DNA from: Synechocystis sp. PCC 7338
GTDB lineage: Bacteria; Cyanobacteriota; Cyanobacteriia; Cyanobacteriales; Microcystaceae
Length of the DNA stretch: 64,000 nt
Direction: 5' to 3'
NCBI RefSeq assembly: GCF_018282115.1
Contig: NZ_CP054306.1
Location: forward strand, 915,488 to 979,487
The notes below the pieces were generated by a model, which had not been told where the DNA came from, searched no databases, and saw only the letters and a program-made list of their open reading frames with translations. Of the stretch, positions 14,649-63,183 are shown piece after piece (within the stretch, counting starts at the first letter, position 1; the number at the start of each line of letters is the position of its first letter). The translations under genes were made by a program, and so were the position numbers.

Positions 14649-15422
14649 CTAAAAATTGTCCTTCATCCCCCGGAGCTTGCCAAATACCCGAGCTGGCTCC
14701 GTCAGACCCACCTGAGCTTGAATAACGGGATTGTCCCACCGCAGAAAAGGATTGGTGCGTTTTTCTGTGCCTAACCAAGATGGGATGGTGGCCTGGCCTC
14801 GTTGGCGATCGCCTTGTACTGTCTGGAATCGTTCCTGGAGGTCCCTGTTATCGGGGTCAACGGTGAGGGCAAATTTGAGGTTACCTAGGGTGTATTCGTG
14901 GGCGCACCACAGCCGGGTTTGATCCGGTAATTGCCGCAATTTACTGATGGATTGCACCATCTGGGCGGGAGTGCCTTCAAATAAACGGCCACAGCCCCCG
15001 GCAAAAATGGTATCGCCGCAAAATAAATCCCCTGTAGTTTCCCCAGGCCCTGGAGCAAAGTAATAGGCAATGTGGCCCCTGGTGTGGCCGGGGACAAAAT
15101 AGATGGTTGCTTCCCTACCGCCAAAACTCAGGCGATCGCCATCTTGGAGAAAAATTGTTTGGCCGGGGATGCGTCCCTCGTCTTCTGCTCCCCCGTAAAT
15201 TTTCAAATTGGGATATTGGGCTAGGAGTTCTCGGTTGGCCCCCACATGGTCCCAGTGGTGATGGGTGTTATAAATAGCTACTAAATCAGCCCCTAATTTT
15301 TGTAGGCAGTCCAATACAGGTTTAGCCACCGCCGGATCCACCACTGCGGTCTGATTCCCCTGGCGATCGTGGAGCAAAAAAATATAGTTATCTGCCAGGA
15401 CGGGTAAGCGACGAATATCCAT
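14649..15422 (-). CDS. gloB: hydroxyacylglutathione hydrolase (glyoxalase II)
   Basis: 257 residues, the normal size. The metallo-beta-lactamase motif THHHWDH puts H54, H56, D58 and H59 in the dinuclear metal site; later ligands are in [29 protein letters not shown] and [13 protein letters not shown]. The enzyme hydrolyses S-D-lactoylglutathione to D-lactate and glutathione in methylglyoxal detoxification. The C-terminal NPFLRWDNP is the family's substrate-binding region. It faces hliD convergently. Confidence 0.93.
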
Positions 15423-15485: not shown

Positions 15486-16790
15486 TTAGACTTCCCAAGC
15501 CACCACTGCACCCTTGAGGCTATGGCCCCACCAAGGACTGTTATAGGCAGAAGTTTGCAAAGCCCCCCTCTGTAAAGTCCAAGCTAGACCGGGATCAAAC
15601 AAAATTCGCGGCGGATTAAGCTTGGGTAGGCCCAAGCATTGCCGAGGATTCGTGCTCAGGGCACGCCACAGTTCAGTGGCAGTTACCAGACCCTTTTCCA
15701 CTAACCCTTGCCACAAACAGGGCAAAACCAATTCGTAGCCGATCGCCCCGGGGGGAGCTTCCGCAAAGGTTTGGGTTTTTTCTTCGTAGGTAAAGGCGTG
15801 ATGATCCACCGCAATAGCATCAATGACACCGTTTTTAATCCCCTCAATGAGAGCTAAACGATCGCCTTCGTTACCCAGGGGGGGGTCAAAGCGCAAATTG
15901 GGATCGTAGTGGGGCGTATGGGGCGGTAAACCATGGGCGATCGCCCCGTTGCTGAGCAGGAGATGGTGCCAGTTGACGCTAGCGGTGCAATTTAACCCCT
16001 GACTTTTAGCTTGGGCAATTAGTTCGACTCCCCGGGCGGTGGAAATACGCATCAGATGCACGGGGGTCAAATAATGGGGTAATAATTCCAACAAACTGGC
16101 GATCGCCGCCGCTTCGGACATTACCGGATCCGGTGGCAGGCCCAACTGGATCGCCAACGGCCCTTCCCGCATCACCCCATTACCCCGCAGGGAACTGTTG
16201 AGGGGAACCAAAGCTAAAGGTTTGCCGGCCATAGCCCCATATTCCAAAGCCCGCTGTAGTAACCGCCAATCTTGAATTGCGCCCCCATCGCTAAAACCAA
16301 TTACCCCTGCTTGGTCTAGCTCTCCCCATTCCGTTAACTGCTTGCCCTGGTTGCCGTGGGTGACGCTCCCCCACCAGTGGCATTGAACTGTGGCCGCATC
16401 TTCCCCCTGCTCCCGCGGGTGGGCATTTACCCCTGCCATCTGATTTAACCGTTGCTCCAACCATTGCAAAGTTTGGGGCCGATCCAACGGGGGATCGGTG
16501 TTAGGCAAAATGGCTATGTCCCCAAAGCCGCCGGCGATCGCCGTTTGCAGTAATTGGCCGAGGGTTTCCCGGTCTTCGTGGCCAGGCTCACCGCTGTAGC
16601 TGTACAGATCCGCCAAGCTGGGGGCCAAGAGCAAATTGTCTCCGGGAACCACCACCGCATCCGTTGGTATCGGGTGAGAATCATCCTCCACGGCCACAAT
16701 GGCATTGCCCTGTACCATCACCGTCACCCGTATTTCCTTGCCCTGTATGGGATCTAGGCAACGAACCTGGGGTCGACATTGCGTTTCCAT
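15486..16790 (-). CDS. pyrC: dihydroorotase-like protein lacking catalytic histidines
   Basis: 434 residues, collinear with class I dihydroorotases (GDNLLLAPSLADL, AGGFGDIAILPNTDPP, GFSDGGAI, DPPLG, IDAIAVDHHAF). The zinc ligands are mostly gone: the HxHxRDPG motif reads LYSYSGEPG, the VHICHVST histidine is R in VHLMRIST, the histidine expected after FSDDG is missing, and DHAPH is DHHAF. The two aspartates remain. It is therefore probably a non-catalytic paralogue like PyrC' of Pseudomonas, which structurally supports aspartate transcarbamoylase. A true DHOase should be elsewhere in the genome. Confidence 0.85.
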   Translation of the reverse strand: METQCRPQVRCLDPIQGKEIRVTVMVQGNAIVAVEDDSHPIPTDAVVVPGDNLLLAPSLADLYSYSGEPGHEDRETLGQLLQTAIAGGFGDIAILPNTDPPLDRPQTLQWLEQRLNQMAGVNAHPREQGEDAATVQCHWWGSVTHGNQGKQLTEWGELDQAGVIGFSDGGAIQDWRLLQRALEYGAMAGKPLALVPLNSSLRGNGVMREGPLAIQLGLPPDPVMSEAAAIASLLELLPHYLTPVHLMRISTARGVELIAQAKSQGLNCTASVNWHHLLLSNGAIAHGLPPHTPHYDPNLRFDPPLGNEGDRLALIEGIKNGVIDAIAVDHHAFTYEEKTQTFAEAPPGAIGYELVLPCLWQGLVEKGLVTATELWRALSTNPRQCLGLPKLNPPRILFDPGLAWTLQRGALQTSAYNSPWWGHSLKGAVVAWEV

Positions 16791-16909: not shown

Positions 16910-18238
16910 TTAGTCTTCAAAGGCAATCTCCACCCCTTTTTCTGTTTGACCATGTTCAACAATATCGAGCCCCACTTTTTCCTGGGACGGTTTTACCCGC
17001 AACATGCCCCAAAGGTCCAGGAGGTAGAAAAGGAAAAACATGGTGATGAAGGCCCAAAAGGGAATCACCAAGGAGCCAACGATTTGGGCACTGAGTTTAT
17101 GTTCAATGTTGGTGCTGAAAATGCCCACGGCAATCCCCCCCCAAATGCCACATAAACCGTGCACAGGCCAAGCGCCCACCCCGTCGTCAATGCGTAGACG
17201 ATCCAACAGCTTCGTGCCCAGCACCGACAAAATGCCTGCCACCGCCCCAATGGCGATCGCCGACCAGTTACTAACGGCGTCACAACCGGCAGTAATACCC
17301 ACCAAGCCGCCCAAAATACCATTGAGGGTCACCAGCAAGTTGGCTTTATGTTTAGCTTCCGTAATCCAGTCGAAGGCTAGGGCCGCTAATCCACCAGCGG
17401 CGGCGGAAAGGGTAGTGTTCACTGCAATTAACATGGTGGTATTGGTGTTTAGAGCCCCCACAAAGGCCAATTGGCTGCCGGGGTTAAAGCCATACCAGCC
17501 CACCCAGAGAATAAACACCCCCAGGGAACTGGAAGTAATCCCCTGATAACCTAGACTGTTAATTTTGTTACCCTCAAAACGCCCAATGCGTGGCCCCATC
17601 ACCACCACAGCGGCCAGGGCAGCAAATCCCCCCACCGCATGCACCAGAATCGAACCGGCAAAATCATGGAATCCCAATTGGTCAAGCCAGCCTCCACCCC
17701 ACTTCCAGTAACCACTGATGGGATAGACCAACCCAGTAATGACAGCGGAGTAAATTAGGTAGGCTTTGAAATACATCCTCCCCATGACCGCCCCGGAGAC
17801 AATAGTGGCCGCCGTGGCCGCAAAGGCCGCTTGGAACAACCAATCCACCTGGGGACTAAGGCCTTCCACGTTATTTGGGGTGTTGGCAATGCCAAAGCCA
17901 CTCCAGCCAAAAAAGCCTCCCAATACTGGAGTTTCGCCGTACATGACGCTGTAGCCAAAGAGGAAGTAAAGTAATACCCCCACACAAACATCAAAAGTGT
18001 TCTTAAAGAGCACATTAACTGTATTTTTGTGGGAAGACAGTCCCGCTTCCAACATAGCAAAGCCAGCCTGCATGAACAGTACTAAAACCGCTGCGGCCAG
18101 TAAGAATAAATTATTAATTGCATAGGTAACTTCTGCAATGGAAATGGTTTCTGTTTGGGCCTGGGCCACCCCGACAAATAAAAATGCCAGCATAGCGCCC
18201 AGGGCATAACGGGCAAGGGGAAAAATTTTGGGTTTCAT
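16910..18238 (-). CDS. amt: Amt family ammonium transporter
   Basis: 442 residues. A cleavable signal-like N-terminus (LGAMLAFLFVGVAQAQ) is followed by eleven membrane helices. Family motifs include FWLQ-like FMQAGFAMLEAG, DFAGSILVHAVGGFAALA and the pore region VHGLCGIWGG with conserved histidines. It moves ammonium across the plasma membrane. No PII (glnB) gene is adjacent. The upstream 240 bp hold a near match to an NtcA site but not a convincing one. Confidence 0.95.
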   Translation of the reverse strand: MKPKIFPLARYALGAMLAFLFVGVAQAQTETISIAEVTYAINNLFLLAAAVLVLFMQAGFAMLEAGLSSHKNTVNVLFKNTFDVCVGVLLYFLFGYSVMYGETPVLGGFFGWSGFGIANTPNNVEGLSPQVDWLFQAAFAATAATIVSGAVMGRMYFKAYLIYSAVITGLVYPISGYWKWGGGWLDQLGFHDFAGSILVHAVGGFAALAAVVVMGPRIGRFEGNKINSLGYQGITSSSLGVFILWVGWYGFNPGSQLAFVGALNTNTTMLIAVNTTLSAAAGGLAALAFDWITEAKHKANLLVTLNGILGGLVGITAGCDAVSNWSAIAIGAVAGILSVLGTKLLDRLRIDDGVGAWPVHGLCGIWGGIAVGIFSTNIEHKLSAQIVGSLVIPFWAFITMFFLFYLLDLWGMLRVKPSQEKVGLDIVEHGQTEKGVEIAFED

Positions 18239-20724: not shown

Positions 20725-23700
20725 TTAAATTACAGTTGCTCCATTCAGGTCCACACCGAAAATGTTGGCCTGGGCGATCGCCTCGGGGGATCCGGCGGCG
20801 AAAACATTGGAAGAAAGCCAATTCCAATCGGAACTAGAGTTCCAAACACCAATTTGGTTGGTGTCGAGGTTTTGCCAAAGCACTTGATTAACCCCCTCTA
20901 CGGTTTCCGCTGCTAGGGCCTGCCAGTTGCCCAGGTCATTGTCAAAAGCTTCTCCTAGGTATTTGAGGGGGGTTGTTAAGCCATCACCGGTTTGGGCGTA
21001 GTAATTACCAAAGATGCCTTCTAGAAGACTAACATTGCCCTTGGTTTCTACATTGGTCAGGCGATCGCCAAGGAGTAGATCATTATTGAGATCAATCTGG
21101 AAAGTAACCTCCGCTTCCAGGGTATTGAAAGAATCAGTAGCCCAGGTTTCGGAAGAAATCCAGTTCCAGTTGGCATCAGCATTCCACAGCCCAAATTGAT
21201 TACTGTCAGGGTTTTGCCAGAGCACTTGATTGATTCCTGCCACGGTTTCCGCTTCCAGGATTTGCCAATTACCAAAAGTGTCGGCTCCCAAGGGCTGGTC
21301 TTCATACTTCAGGCTCACTTCCATGCCATTGGGCAGTTCAACCAAGAAGAAGCCATCTTGTGCCACAGCCTTAATGTCATTGTTGGATGGATTCAGCGCA
21401 TCGATAACAGTATCAACCCGGAAAGCCAGGTTTTGAATCCGGGTATCAAATACCGGGGTGGTATCCGTTTGATTAAAGGCAGTTGCGGGAGTATTGAAGT
21501 TGGCCGCCAAATATTCCGCCAGGGCATCCTGTTCAGAACCATTGGGGGCAAAGGTGGCAAACCCTGTACGGGGAGCGTCTTCGGGGAGATTCAAATCAAC
21601 CCGATTGGCACTATCTCCGGTGGGGAAAGGATAGCCATCACCCCCTCCGGCCAGGAATCCCAGGGTGACCATGCGGAAGCTACGGCTAGGATCACCTATT
21701 AAGTCACCGTCTTTAACTAACACGTCTATGTCTTTGCCGGTTTCATCTTCGATCGCCAGGGAAAGAATCCGATTGCCGGGGGCACGGTCGAGGTCAAAGC
21801 TGAAGGCAATACCACTAACTTGGGGAAAACGACCCTGTTGGTTAGTGCCGTCACTGGCCGCAATACCATGCTCTAGCAGGGCTAATAATTCAGCGGCAGT
21901 AACGGTGATCAAGCTCAAGCCATTGTTAAAGCTCAGAGCGTTGGCAATGTCCGTTTCGGAAATGCCACCTTCAGGTTTAATCACATTACCATTGGCATCA
22001 GTCACCGCTTCATTGGGCAGTCGCTCGGGCATCCCAGTTCCCCCGGCGGGGATCACAACCCGACCAATGTCATCCCGAATGCCGCCGCCATTTTTAAGGG
22101 AAATGAGAGCAGTGGGATCCGTTTGTTTGGCGATCGCCAGGTTGGCATCGGCGGTTAGGTTACCCAGATTGGTTTCCTGTTGGCGAACTGCCGGGCGTAA
22201 CCCTTCGAGGTAAACATCACTCAAACCAAAGACATTACTTTCTTTGGCAACAATCACTTCCCGTAATTGATCCACAATGGCTTGGATTTCCTGATCCACC
22301 AGGCCCGCCGCATTCAGATCTGCCACTCCCTGAGGATCGGTGGCATAGGCTCCACTGATTAAGGGGTCATAGCTTTCGGGAATAATTACCCCCTCGGCAT
22401 CAAAGTCAATCACGAGGCGGCCGACATATTTGTAATTGCCGTCAGTATTAACCACTGCCACGGGGTTACCATCTGCACCAGTTTTGATAATGGGGTAAAT
22501 TCCTTGGGCCGTATCCCCTGCCCGCAGGCGATCGTTTTCATCCACCAAGCGGGCATTGGAACCACCGGCTACAATAATGTCCACATGGCTGAGGCGGGAA
22601 GCCAATTCCTGCTCAATGCTGATTTGTTGCATATGGGCTAACAGCACCACCTTATTCAGCCCCGGATTGGCCAACAATAAGGCATCCACATCCGCTTGGA
22701 TAATGGCGGCGAGGGCATCCAACTCTTCCGCAGTGGGAGTGCCACCAAAGGGACTGGGCAAAATCCCCACATCGCCGGGGCTAGCAATTGTTCTCAGGGT
22801 TGGGGTGGTGGCCCCCACAATGCCAATTTTTTCTCCATTGACGGTGATAACGGTGCTAGCGGCAATTTTGCCAGGGATGGTGCTGGATTCCTGGCCATCC
22901 GCTGTGAGCAAAGGGCTTAGGTTCCCATCGGTGGTGAAATCGAGGTTTCCACTGAGGTAGGGAAAGTTGGCCCCGGGGAAATTATCTGCCGGATCCCCTC
23001 CAATCAAATCGGCTATCAACGCTGTGCCCAGGTCAAATTCGTGGTTGCCAAAGGCGATCGCCTGGAAGCCCAACTCGTTTTGAATCAAAATATCCGCCCG
23101 ACCTGCGCCGCCAAACACATCCTGGGAAGCACCAAAGAAAAGCCCAGGAATATAGGCATCCCCAGAGGAAAGAATGAGATTATTGGCAAAACCGGGAATA
23201 CCATCATTGTCAATGTCCTGTTGCAGGAGGGCATTGAGCACAGCGGAGAAACGAGGCGCATCATCCAGAGCGGGTACTCCCCCTTCCTGGTCAGCGGCAT
23301 GGAACAACTGCAGGGTGAAAGGCTGGGGAGTGGGAACATTAACCTCAAAAATAGCCGTGGTTTGGCTCACCTCATTGCTCACCACCAATAATGGTTTCCC
23401 GTTGGGACTATCGGCCGCGTCAATAAAAATTAATCCTTCTGGGCCGGAATCGGTCAAATTAGACTCTGGATCGACAGTGAAATCCCGTGGATTAACGTAT
23501 TGAACAAATTCAGGGGACTCGGGATTGGTCACCTCGTAAACCATGACGCCGCCAATGCGTTCCAATCCCACAAAGGCATAGGTACGACCGTCGATGGTGC
23601 CCACTGTCACCCCTTCTGGCTCAGGCCCCTTATTATCACTGCGGTTATCGAAACTGTTGTTGTTGTTGCTGGCATTGAAAAAATCCGGTATCGATTCAGC

Positions 23701-24936
23701 GACAATCCTTTCAAAATCGTCCCCACTGTCGTAAATCAAATTACCGTTGCTGTCCCAAATGGAGAAAGAACGGGAACCATAGGTGTAGAGTTGGTCAAAA
23801 TCCCCATCCCCATCAATGTCCCCAAATTTGGTGGTTACGGTCAGACGACCAAGGTTGGCATCTGCTTGCAACTCTGCGGCATTGGGAAAAGCCACCGGGT
23901 CTAGAATCAAATCCTTAATCCGAGCTTCTTCCAGAAAAATATCTCCTTCCCCATCAAACGGAGAGGGAAAAATATCATCGTCCGAGGGACGGTTGCGGGC
24001 ATCCCCTTCATTGGCGGTGATGTAATAGGTCTGGTCTCCGACGGTAAAAGAGGCAATGCTGTCGGGCATATACATGCCGAAAATTGGCCAATTTTGAATA
24101 TTAATCCCCCCATCCCGATCGCTGGCATCCAATCCATTACCCGGCAAGCTGTGGTCCTTAAAACCTAGGGGCAGAATCGACTCCACTGTGGCACTGGCAA
24201 TGTCAACCACTGCAACGGCATTATTTTCCTGCAAGGTTACCCAGGCTTTAGTCCCATCTCCGTTAAAGGCAATATATTCCGGCTCCACATCTTCCGCTAC
24301 GGTGCTGTTCCGGACAACGTTACCATTCTCATCGAAAATCTGGCCGAAAAGTCTGACACCAGCGGCTAGTAGATCAGCTTTTTGGGTGTTAAAACTATCA
24401 AAAGTGGCAGTCTGGGCTACTAGGTTGCTAAACCCATTGCTGATGTCCACAATGCTCACTGAACCCACCGGATCCACTGTGTAGCTTTCATTGGGTTCCC
24501 CTTCATTGGCGGTTAAAACTTTTGTCCCATCGGGGCTAAAGGCGACCATATCGGGTAAAAAACCCACCAGCACTTTGCCCAGGAAATTGCCGGTAGCTGT
24601 ATCGAAAAACTGTACTTGACCTGCTTCCTGATTGTTAAGGTCATCCCGAATGGCCAAGGACACAGCCACAATGCCCGCGCTGGGAGTACCGGCTTTACCC
24701 ACCGCCACACTGTTGGGTGCAGGGCTGAAACCGGGGGGCAGGCCATCAAAATCCAGTGCCAAATCCCCCAGCTTAGTGGGATTGGTGGGATCGGTTAGAT
24801 CTAAAATTTCGATTACGGAGCCCGCCACCACAAATAGGCGCTTAGTGCTGGGGTCGAAGGCAGGAATTTCCGACCCATTACTGCTGGCAAAGCCACCAAT
24901 TTTGCTTATCAAACTAACGCCGTTGTTAATGGTCAT
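20725..24936 (-). CDS. giant secreted phosphatase: beta-propeller plus 5'-nucleotidase plus Trp-rich repeats
   Basis: 1403 residues. Residues 1-530 form a choice-of-anchor-I/esterase-like propeller (VFSPDGTKVLTANEGEPNE, YITANEGDARN, GPEPEGVTVGTIDGRTYAF). About 540-1180 is a calcineurin-type 5'-nucleotidase with FHAADQEGG, LSSGDAYIPG, FGNHEFDLGT near 632, VLLAHMQQ and a UshA-like C domain (LKNGGGIRDDIG). The last 200 residues contain two near-copies of a Trp-rich unit (NWQ.LEAETV.G.NQVLWQN). No signal peptide is visible, which fits type I secretion of giant cyanobacterial alkaline phosphatases. Pho-box control is visible upstream. Confidence 0.88.
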   Translation of the reverse strand: MTINNGVSLISKIGGFASSNGSEIPAFDPSTKRLFVVAGSVIEILDLTDPTNPTKLGDLALDFDGLPPGFSPAPNSVAVGKAGTPSAGIVAVSLAIRDDLNNQEAGQVQFFDTATGNFLGKVLVGFLPDMVAFSPDGTKVLTANEGEPNESYTVDPVGSVSIVDISNGFSNLVAQTATFDSFNTQKADLLAAGVRLFGQIFDENGNVVRNSTVAEDVEPEYIAFNGDGTKAWVTLQENNAVAVVDIASATVESILPLGFKDHSLPGNGLDASDRDGGINIQNWPIFGMYMPDSIASFTVGDQTYYITANEGDARNRPSDDDIFPSPFDGEGDIFLEEARIKDLILDPVAFPNAAELQADANLGRLTVTTKFGDIDGDGDFDQLYTYGSRSFSIWDSNGNLIYDSGDDFERIVAESIPDFFNASNNNNSFDNRSDNKGPEPEGVTVGTIDGRTYAFVGLERIGGVMVYEVTNPESPEFVQYVNPRDFTVDPESNLTDSGPEGLIFIDAADSPNGKPLLVVSNEVSQTTAIFEVNVPTPQPFTLQLFHAADQEGGVPALDDAPRFSAVLNALLQQDIDNDGIPGFANNLILSSGDAYIPGLFFGASQDVFGGAGRADILIQNELGFQAIAFGNHEFDLGTALIADLIGGDPADNFPGANFPYLSGNLDFTTDGNLSPLLTADGQESSTIPGKIAASTVITVNGEKIGIVGATTPTLRTIASPGDVGILPSPFGGTPTAEELDALAAIIQADVDALLLANPGLNKVVLLAHMQQISIEQELASRLSHVDIIVAGGSNARLVDENDRLRAGDTAQGIYPIIKTGADGNPVAVVNTDGNYKYVGRLVIDFDAEGVIIPESYDPLISGAYATDPQGVADLNAAGLVDQEIQAIVDQLREVIVAKESNVFGLSDVYLEGLRPAVRQQETNLGNLTADANLAIAKQTDPTALISLKNGGGIRDDIGRVVIPAGGTGMPERLPNEAVTDANGNVIKPEGGISETDIANALSFNNGLSLITVTAAELLALLEHGIAASDGTNQQGRFPQVSGIAFSFDLDRAPGNRILSLAIEDETGKDIDVLVKDGDLIGDPSRSFRMVTLGFLAGGGDGYPFPTGDSANRVDLNLPEDAPRTGFATFAPNGSEQDALAEYLAANFNTPATAFNQTDTTPVFDTRIQNLAFRVDTVIDALNPSNNDIKAVAQDGFFLVELPNGMEVSLKYEDQPLGADTFGNWQILEAETVAGINQVLWQNPDSNQFGLWNADANWNWISSETWATDSFNTLEAEVTFQIDLNNDLLLGDRLTNVETKGNVSLLEGIFGNYYAQTGDGLTTPLKYLGEAFDNDLGNWQALAAETVEGVNQVLWQNLDTNQIGVWNSSSDWNWLSSNVFAAGSPEAIAQANIFGVDLNGATVI

Positions 24937-41554: not shown

Positions 41555-41627
41555 GGGCGGAGACGTAAGTTTCCGTTCACTCCTCACACCACACTCCGCC
41601 TGGATGATGTTCGGGCGGTTTCTTCTT
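41555..41627 (+). ncRNA. yfr1: Yfr1 cyanobacterial small RNA
   Basis: The ultraconserved single-stranded motif ACTCCTCACACC (41579-41590) is present between two stem-loops. The 5' stem is CGGA...TCCG, and the 3' stem is CCGCC (41596-41600) with GGCGG (41614-41618), followed by TTTCTTCTT as terminator. Yfr1 is a short trans-acting RNA that represses outer-membrane porin mRNAs and is needed under stress; in many cyanobacteria it is located near trxA, as here. Exact ends are inferred from the -10 box and the T-run. Confidence 0.9.
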
Positions 41628-62735: not shown

Positions 62736-63143
62736 AGAGAGTTAGGGCGGGAGTTGCGGATTCCTGTCACAGGGAATCTGAGGAAAGTCCGGGCTTCCCA
62801 AAGGCCAAACTTGCTGGGTAACGCCCAGTGCGCGCGAGCGTGAGGATAGTGCCACAGAAAAATACCGCCTTTTCAGTAAACAGTGATCAGTCTAAACCCC
62901 TGGTAAATGATAACTGTCAAGGTAAGGGTGCAAAGGTGCGGTAAGAGCGCACCAGCAGTATCGAGAGGTACTGGCTCGGTAAACCCCGGTTGGAAGCAAG
63001 GTCGGAGGGGCAAAGGTTGGTCTTTTTCCTGCCCCATGATTGGTGGAACCGCTTGAGGAATTTGGTAACAAATTTCCCAGATAGATAACTCCCCTAGGGT
63101 GCTTCGCATCCTGGAACAGAACCCGGCTTACGACTAACTCTCT
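62736..63143 (+). ncRNA. rnpB: RNase P RNA (rnpB)
   Basis: The RNA ends pair as AGAGAGTTAG (62736-62745) and CTAACTCTCT (63134-63143). The hallmark GAGGAAAGTCCGGGC (P4 5' half) starts near 62772, and ACAGAACCCGGCTTACG near 63116-63132 is the P4 3' half. About 408 nt between the paired ends, followed by TTTTTT terminating transcription. Ribozyme core that removes tRNA 5' leaders. Confidence 0.95.
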
Positions 63144-63183
63144 TTTTTCTTTGTATATCCTTTGCCCATAGGAACAGGACAGA

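Follow-up and report, generated by a model that had tools for sequence, protein, structure and literature searches.

The window, a stretch of 64,000 nucleotides from the genome of Synechocystis sp. PCC 7338, carries on its minus strand an open reading frame (positions 15486-16790) that starts with ATG, has no internal stops and encodes a protein of 434 aa, which we call PyrC'. It is flanked, on the same strand, by ORFs whose products are presumably an ammonium transporter-like protein (16910-18238) and a glyoxalase II-like protein (14649-15422). The closest named relative among the best 80 of 430 is from Synechocystis salina LEGE 00031 (93 % identity). PyrC' is a full-length member of NCBIfam NF005614 (PRK07369), an equivalog model named 'dihydroorotase', which it matches at 593.8 bits against a curated cut-off of 456. 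It also matches TIGR00857 (464 bits; cut-off 279), and scores 17.7 with the Pfam amidohydrolase model, under the cut-off of 25. The initial annotation held that the protein is called an enzyme by default, and the curated model does indeed name it a dihydroorotase (DHO). Elsewhere in the window we noted a 1403-aa ORF at 20725-24936 (minus strand), whose product we take to resemble a secreted 5'-nucleotidase/esterase-type protein, a bacterial RNase P RNA at 62737-63146 (plus strand; RF00010, 264 bits) and the cyanobacterial small RNA Yfr1 at 41557-41620 (plus strand; RF01116, 58 bits). The gene and its altered sites, mapped by alignment to DHO chains from Aquifex and Thermus, are:

15486..16790, minus strand: pyrC', a class I dihydroorotase-like gene (434 aa) of the NCBIfam NF005614/PRK07369 family, from the ORF, profile matches and fold
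16596..16604, minus strand: YSY (codons 63-65) replacing the HxH of the alpha zinc site (Aquifex H61, H63), by alignment
16590..16592, minus strand: Gly67 replacing Aquifex R65, by alignment; Arg is kept in 0 of 150 family proteins
16284..16289, minus strand: Asp-Gly (codons 168-169) against the Asp-Asp-Gly of active class I DHOs (Aquifex D152-D153-G154), by alignment
16206..16208, minus strand: Val195 replacing beta-site His180, by alignment; 66 of the 125 non-f12 proteins have Trp here
16047..16049, minus strand: Arg248 (in VHLMRIST) replacing beta-site His232, by alignment; Arg in 119 of 125 non-f12 proteins
15792..15806, minus strand: DHHAF (codons 329-333, in AVDHHAF) replacing DHAPH, by alignment; the second His is lost

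It had been claimed from the sequence that this protein has lost its zinc-binding histidines and is otherwise collinear with dihydroorotases. At the alpha site, Aquifex H61 and H63 correspond to Y63 and Y65 (context DLYSYSG), and in the DHAPH motif Aquifex H309 corresponds to F333; Aquifex R65 and H309 are, we assume, substrate-binding residues of DHO. The claimed losses stand for Y63, Y65, R248 and F333, and V195 adds the other beta-site His to them, but the 'DH' of the last motif is retained as D329 (equivalent to Aquifex D305) and H330. The fate of the alpha-site Asp153 is ambiguous and depends on the alignment, since FSDGG against FTDDG can be read as a change of Asp to Gly or as a deletion of one residue. 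In this alignment the window protein lacks the residue set of catalytic class I DHOs, with the four zinc His and the equivalents of R65 and H309 gone. Collinearity was borne out: phmmer matched residues 47-427 to residues 39-409 of 2z00, and 407 residues aligned to 3d6n_A (3.3 A). In Aquifex DHO, where the zinc ligands are described as H61, H63 and D153, the H180A/H232A protein is reported still to work and the metal-free form to be inactive (PMC3880350). Hence, the beta site alone is not decisive, and we place the weight on the alpha-site His and the substrate residues.

An AlphaFold2 model of the protein (pLDDT 92.4, pTM 0.92), made from the first genome-wide alignment (A1, 47 rows, used for the fold only), predicts for the window protein a complete class I DHO fold, at the length typical of that class. 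Foldseek ranked 3d6n_A, the Aquifex DHO captured with its aspartate transcarbamoylase (ATC), first, and VIA-align gave Z scores of 49.7 for 2z00 (Thermus DHO), 48.7 for 3d6n_A and 48.6 for 4bjh_A, the class I DHOs in this comparison lying close together in Z. Between the window's genome and a congener (G252), dN/dS was 0.117 for pyrC', 0.028 for pyrB and 0.069 for the gene of the PyrC dimer; pyrC' is under purifying selection, and is less constrained than the catalysts. A value of 0.245 against a more distant congener was set aside because dS was saturated at 1.76. The open frame, the dN/dS of 0.117 and the losses throughout the family rule out a recent pseudogene. Fusion partners were also considered, as some open frames extend to 707 aa; of eight such regions, six, in which the frame was found by a motif pattern and inspected by eye, showed just extra residues before the start, with no recognisable domain, and the two with the longest frames (L284, L285) were unmatched.

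We aligned 155 family proteins, comprising the window protein, loci from a search of cyanobacterial genomes and 80 named loci (the best 80 of 430 confirmed relatives); removal of identical sequences left 150 distinct proteins, the window's included. Four loci (L086, L088, L093, L099) had been taken out as PRK07575, six (L103, L106, L107, L109, L110, L113) gave no pick, and the fragments L108 and L111 are likewise absent. None of the 150 has the HxH motif, and His180, His232, Arg65 and His309 are each found in 0 of 150. Losses that recur in every distinct family protein go beyond chance. The name of NF005614 asserts DHO activity, whereas all 150 members sampled lack the residues that this activity calls for. 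With zinc and substrate residues lost in all sampled relatives, PyrC' probably serves another pyrimidine enzyme as its partner, in a structural or a regulatory role, and the label 'dihydroorotase' is likely to be wrong. We consider it very likely, on the strength of these residue losses, that the window protein is not a DHO and is non-catalytic. That it still is one, with an altered metal site or with no metal, would fit the retention of D329, H330 and, on one alignment, Asp168, and a Pseudomonas PyrC paralogue that lacks canonical ligands has been reported as active (PMC2770081); we regard this as highly improbable given that all 150 proteins lack the HxH motif and the four other residues, that the metal-free Aquifex enzyme is reported to be inactive, and that 282 of the 291 cyanobacterial genomes have a further DHO family.

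In the window's genome the single match to TIGR00857 is the window protein itself. The same genome encodes one PyrC dimer (L004; TIGR00856, 533 bits), whose sequence contains HLH and DSAPH as well as a Lys and two more His. Thus a second complete pyrC, which the initial annotation had proposed looking for, is present, and the window's genome is not one without another dihydroorotase. All four genomes of the window's genus have PyrC', accompanied by the PyrC dimer in three and by PRK07575 in one. Across the 291 genomes, the PyrC dimer (TIGR00856, E <= 1e-30) was found in 121 and PRK07575 (NF005751, E <= 1e-100) in 170, with both in 9 and neither in 9; PRK07575 is the sole other DHO family found in 161. 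Seven of the nine genomes with neither are at most 85 % complete, the remaining two, G131 and G204, being 100 % and 99 % complete. Each of these two has a fragment (L113 in G131, L110 in G204) that matches TIGR00857 but is counted as containing a stop, which could reflect assembly or real decay, and the fragment in G204 reads as PRK07575-like. G131 also encodes a 470-aa protein (L107) that is presumably a hydantoinase-like amidohydrolase. Among PRK07575 proteins, Gln replaces the first His of HxH in 4 of 4 examined (L038, L041, L086, L093).

The PyrC' family itself was detected in 274 of the 291 cyanobacterial genomes (NF005614, E <= 1e-50). At E <= 1e-10 there were matches in 279 genomes, 241 of them above the cut-off, and five (G227, G254, G267, G282, G290), with E-values no better than 4e-39, were dropped as probable cross-hits. 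The members from family f12 fall under the NF005614 cut-off (197-288 bits), and NF005614 was still the best model for the two that were scanned. NF005614 was unmatched in 12 of the 291 genomes, namely G093 (62 % complete), G229 (87 % complete) and, in genus g24, 10 of the 11 genomes, with sizes of 1.6-1.7 Mb. The single g24 genome that retains pyrC' (L098, in G160) has an extremely long branch, with 1.9 changes per column, and is perhaps approaching loss. A cyanobacterial-type pyrC' with 50 % identity to the window protein (L212) lies on a contig titled Candidatus Gracilibacteria that is probably mis-binned. Since PyrC' is present in almost every cyanobacterial lineage sampled, it is probably ancestral there. 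The naming of NF005614 thus affects a nearly phylum-wide set of proteins, and metabolic models of cyanobacteria that assign the DHO step to pyrC' have probably picked the wrong gene.

The lost site has not decayed in the 125 non-f12 proteins: Y63 is present in 123, R248 in 119, D329 in 118 and H330 in 125, position 333 is aromatic in 121, and the segment equivalent to Aquifex 58-70 has a mean column conservation of 0.91, as compared with 0.69 overall. A vestigial site so nearly fixed in a new form would suit a regulatory protein in which the former active site now forms a pocket for a ligand (e.g. a nucleotide or phosphate), so that the protein senses an effector and adjusts PyrB or another pyrimidine step. 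We think this unlikely, if the least unlikely of the alternatives, since the conserved residues may only pack the barrel and the 25 f12 proteins (genomes of 1.7-3.7 Mb) have others: the first His of HxH, at position 63, is kept in 25 of 25 and the second in 0 of 25, position 248 is N in 24, position 329 is H or N in all 25 and position 333 is L in 23, which means that the pocket is not kept everywhere. In 38 columns of the scaffold, one residue is common to at least 95 % of non-f12 and at least 90 % of f12 proteins. As judged from this alignment, the active site is remodelled in two different ways, one in non-f12 and one in f12 proteins, while the scaffold stayed.

The initial annotation had likened the protein to the non-catalytic PyrC' proteins of other bacteria, and the comparison upholds that likeness in the loss of zinc ligands, with kinship to pyrB-linked pseudo-DHOs favoured. 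We compared 12 DHO-like genes drawn from 35 plasmid-filed records with a match. Six have altered ligands (Azospirillum, Methylobacterium, Sinorhizobium, Ruegeria, Shinella and Acinetobacter) and the other six keep all ligands. A PyrB-like ORF accompanies 11 of the 12, including all six pseudo-DHOs, and in those six it lies just upstream of or overlaps the pseudo-DHO gene, two being cut by the end of the region. The Acinetobacter pair comes from a 3.66 Mb record filed as a plasmid (L297, NZ_CP077849.1), which is presumably a chromosome. In a 42-row tree, the six proteobacterial pseudo-DHOs and all cyanobacterial rows lie on one side of a branch with support of 98/96. When the ligand neighbourhoods were masked and the long f12 and Acinetobacter rows omitted, the pseudo-DHO clade had support of 89/83, and two alternatives were not rejected (AU p 0.305 and 0.146). 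Therefore, one ancient loss of catalysis is favoured by these trees, and is not established. Residue comparison revealed no derived state, beyond the losses, that unites the cyanobacterial and proteobacterial pseudo-DHOs; none of the six proteobacterial proteins has W140, R208, W274, G306 or W360, which many of the cyanobacterial rows share.

The Pseudomonas PyrC' (pDHO) of class A2 aspartate transcarbamoylase (ATCase) is described as an inactive DHO homologue, without which the P. aeruginosa ATCase is reported to be inactive (PMC7053772), and cyanobacterial PyrC' shares its loss of zinc ligands. This comparison used one Acinetobacter and five alphaproteobacterial sequences, with Pseudomonas PyrC' itself compared by description. 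As with the Pseudomonas protein, there is a second DHO in the window's genome and no PyrI was found there; unlike it, cyanobacterial pyrC' is not near pyrB, and its pocket has Y, R and aromatic residues. The DHO of the Aquifex aeolicus class A1 DHO-ATC dodecamer (3d6n) has the same fold, with 407 residues aligned and a Z of 48.7, but keeps H61, H63 and D153 and is described as a zinc enzyme that is active when in complex with ATC (PMC3880350). Likewise, the CAD-like pseudo-DHO of fungi (ura2) is reported as a DHO-fold chain without zinc ligands that is tied to ATCase (PMC7053772, PMC4581275); it is a domain of a multifunctional chain, whereas PyrC' is a free chain, and the likeness is drawn by description and not by sequence. 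Among the titles listed from the open-licence literature, none was on a cyanobacterial pseudo-DHO, which we do not take to mean that none has been published.

We favour, with moderate confidence and by analogy with these systems, the interpretation that the window protein is a pseudo-DHO akin to PyrC', with a role in assembling or stabilising PyrB, the aspartate transcarbamoylase. PyrC' would pair with the PyrB catalytic chain in the manner of Pseudomonas PyrC' and Aquifex DHO, and dimers of the DHO fold would join two trimers of PyrB into a dodecamer resembling that of class A2. The first committed step of pyrimidine synthesis would thereby become stable or active, and carbamoyl aspartate would be cyclised by the other DHO, which is the PyrC dimer in the window's genome and PRK07575 in most others. 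PyrC' may thus work like a scaffold or stabiliser and is a putative member of class A2; membership of that class is not established, because linkage to pyrB is absent and the complex is only inferred. If PyrC' does partner PyrB, the cyanobacterial ATCase would consist of two chains encoded at separate places in the genome.

Gene position does not bear out that the protein holds aspartate transcarbamoylase together, as the PyrC' proteins named in the initial annotation do. The window's genome has one PyrB gene (L002; NCBIfam, 389 bits), which is about 2.4 Mb from pyrC' along the contig, and pyrC' lies within 30 kb of pyrB in 0 of 57 genomes; the two are on one contig in 36 of these, the closest pair being 126 kb apart. 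Unlike the six proteobacterial loci, the cyanobacterial genes are therefore not adjacent, adjacency being no part of the biochemical definition of class A2. A partial Mantel test in 22 f12 genomes also gave a null result for the distances of PyrC' and PyrB given the PyrC dimer and OTC (r -0.02, p 0.53), as compared with 0.40 and 0.42 for the PyrC dimer and OTC in the same test. The lack of nearby pyrB and of a partial distance correlation, together with the absence of PyrC' from 10 of the 11 g24 genomes, would suit a protein that has left pyrimidine synthesis and binds, for example, a structural partner of another pathway. We nonetheless doubt this explanation: the fold and kinship of PyrC' are those of ATCase partners, its loss coincides with faster evolution of PyrB (below), and it lies within 2 kb of PRK07575 in 17 of the 89 genomes in which both were placed (places were listed in 150 genomes for PyrC' and in 114 for PRK07575). 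The two genes are also near each other at 10 of the 80 named loci (the best 80 of 430). This nearness ties pyrC' more loosely to pyrimidine synthesis. An operon of pyrC' and PRK07575 was considered and rejected, since in five loci inspected an intervening gene is on the opposite strand, and what is conserved is the neighbourhood only; the gene between them is, we assume, signal-peptidase-like.

PyrI was detected in 0 of the 291 genomes by a search that detected the E. coli control, which argues against a class B ATCase. The closest solved chains to the PyrB of the window's genome are 2at2 and 3r7d, which we take to be Bacillus class C ATCases, with Aquifex third, a point against the partnership. 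In its favour, this PyrB scored 220-263 bits against eight complete PyrBs whose genes are linked to that of a DHO or pseudo-DHO, and 166 bits against Bacillus velezensis PyrB, which is also DHO-linked; the PyrB tree, from which 2 of 11 references were left out as partial, has very long branches.

If PyrC' is a partner of PyrB, the g24 genomes that lost it offer a natural experiment as to whether PyrB can manage alone. PyrB is present in all 10 g24 genomes that lack PyrC', which counts against the partnership. We compared the evolutionary rate of PyrB in 8 of these 10 (G215 and G234 were out) with that in 22 of the 25 PyrC'-bearing f12 genomes (G067, G221 and G286 were out). The ratio of the g24 branch to that of its sister G160, which has kept a fast-evolving PyrC', was 2.68 for PyrB, 1.49 for the PyrC dimer and 1.29 for OTC. 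At residues invariant in the 22 PyrC'-bearing f12 genomes, g24 has changes at 5 of 122 for PyrB, as compared with none of 108 for the PyrC dimer and none of 103 for OTC (Fisher test, pooled p 0.006; singly p 0.062 and 0.064). Four of the changed residues (R61, P116, L150 and V175) are invariant in all 57 PyrC'-bearing PyrBs, 35 of them non-f12 and 22 f12, and are changed in the eight g24 PyrBs (L150 in seven of the eight); four of the five changes are conservative, the exception being P116T. Counts of derived sites, 14:8 for PyrB as compared with 9:11 and 1:4, did not differ significantly (p 0.35 and 0.14). These sequences suggest, on weak statistics, that PyrB evolves faster where PyrC' was lost, the g24 loss being a single event, chosen for the test once the data had been seen, in genomes whose amino-acid composition is unusual.

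The same loss could be accommodated if PyrC' were the counterpart of PyrI, a zinc-free regulatory chain of DHO fold whose effector pocket tunes ATCase up or down; f12 would then have changed the pocket, and g24 would have discarded the chain, leaving PyrB to run alone. We view this proposal as speculative, and about as doubtful as a role outside pyrimidine synthesis. As a separate observation on PyrB, the proteins of four genomes (L072-L075, from G015, G171, G191 and G152) match TIGR00670 in two pieces, with the break at model positions 195-206 resembling an insert, and the f12 PyrBs have an insert at roughly the same place.
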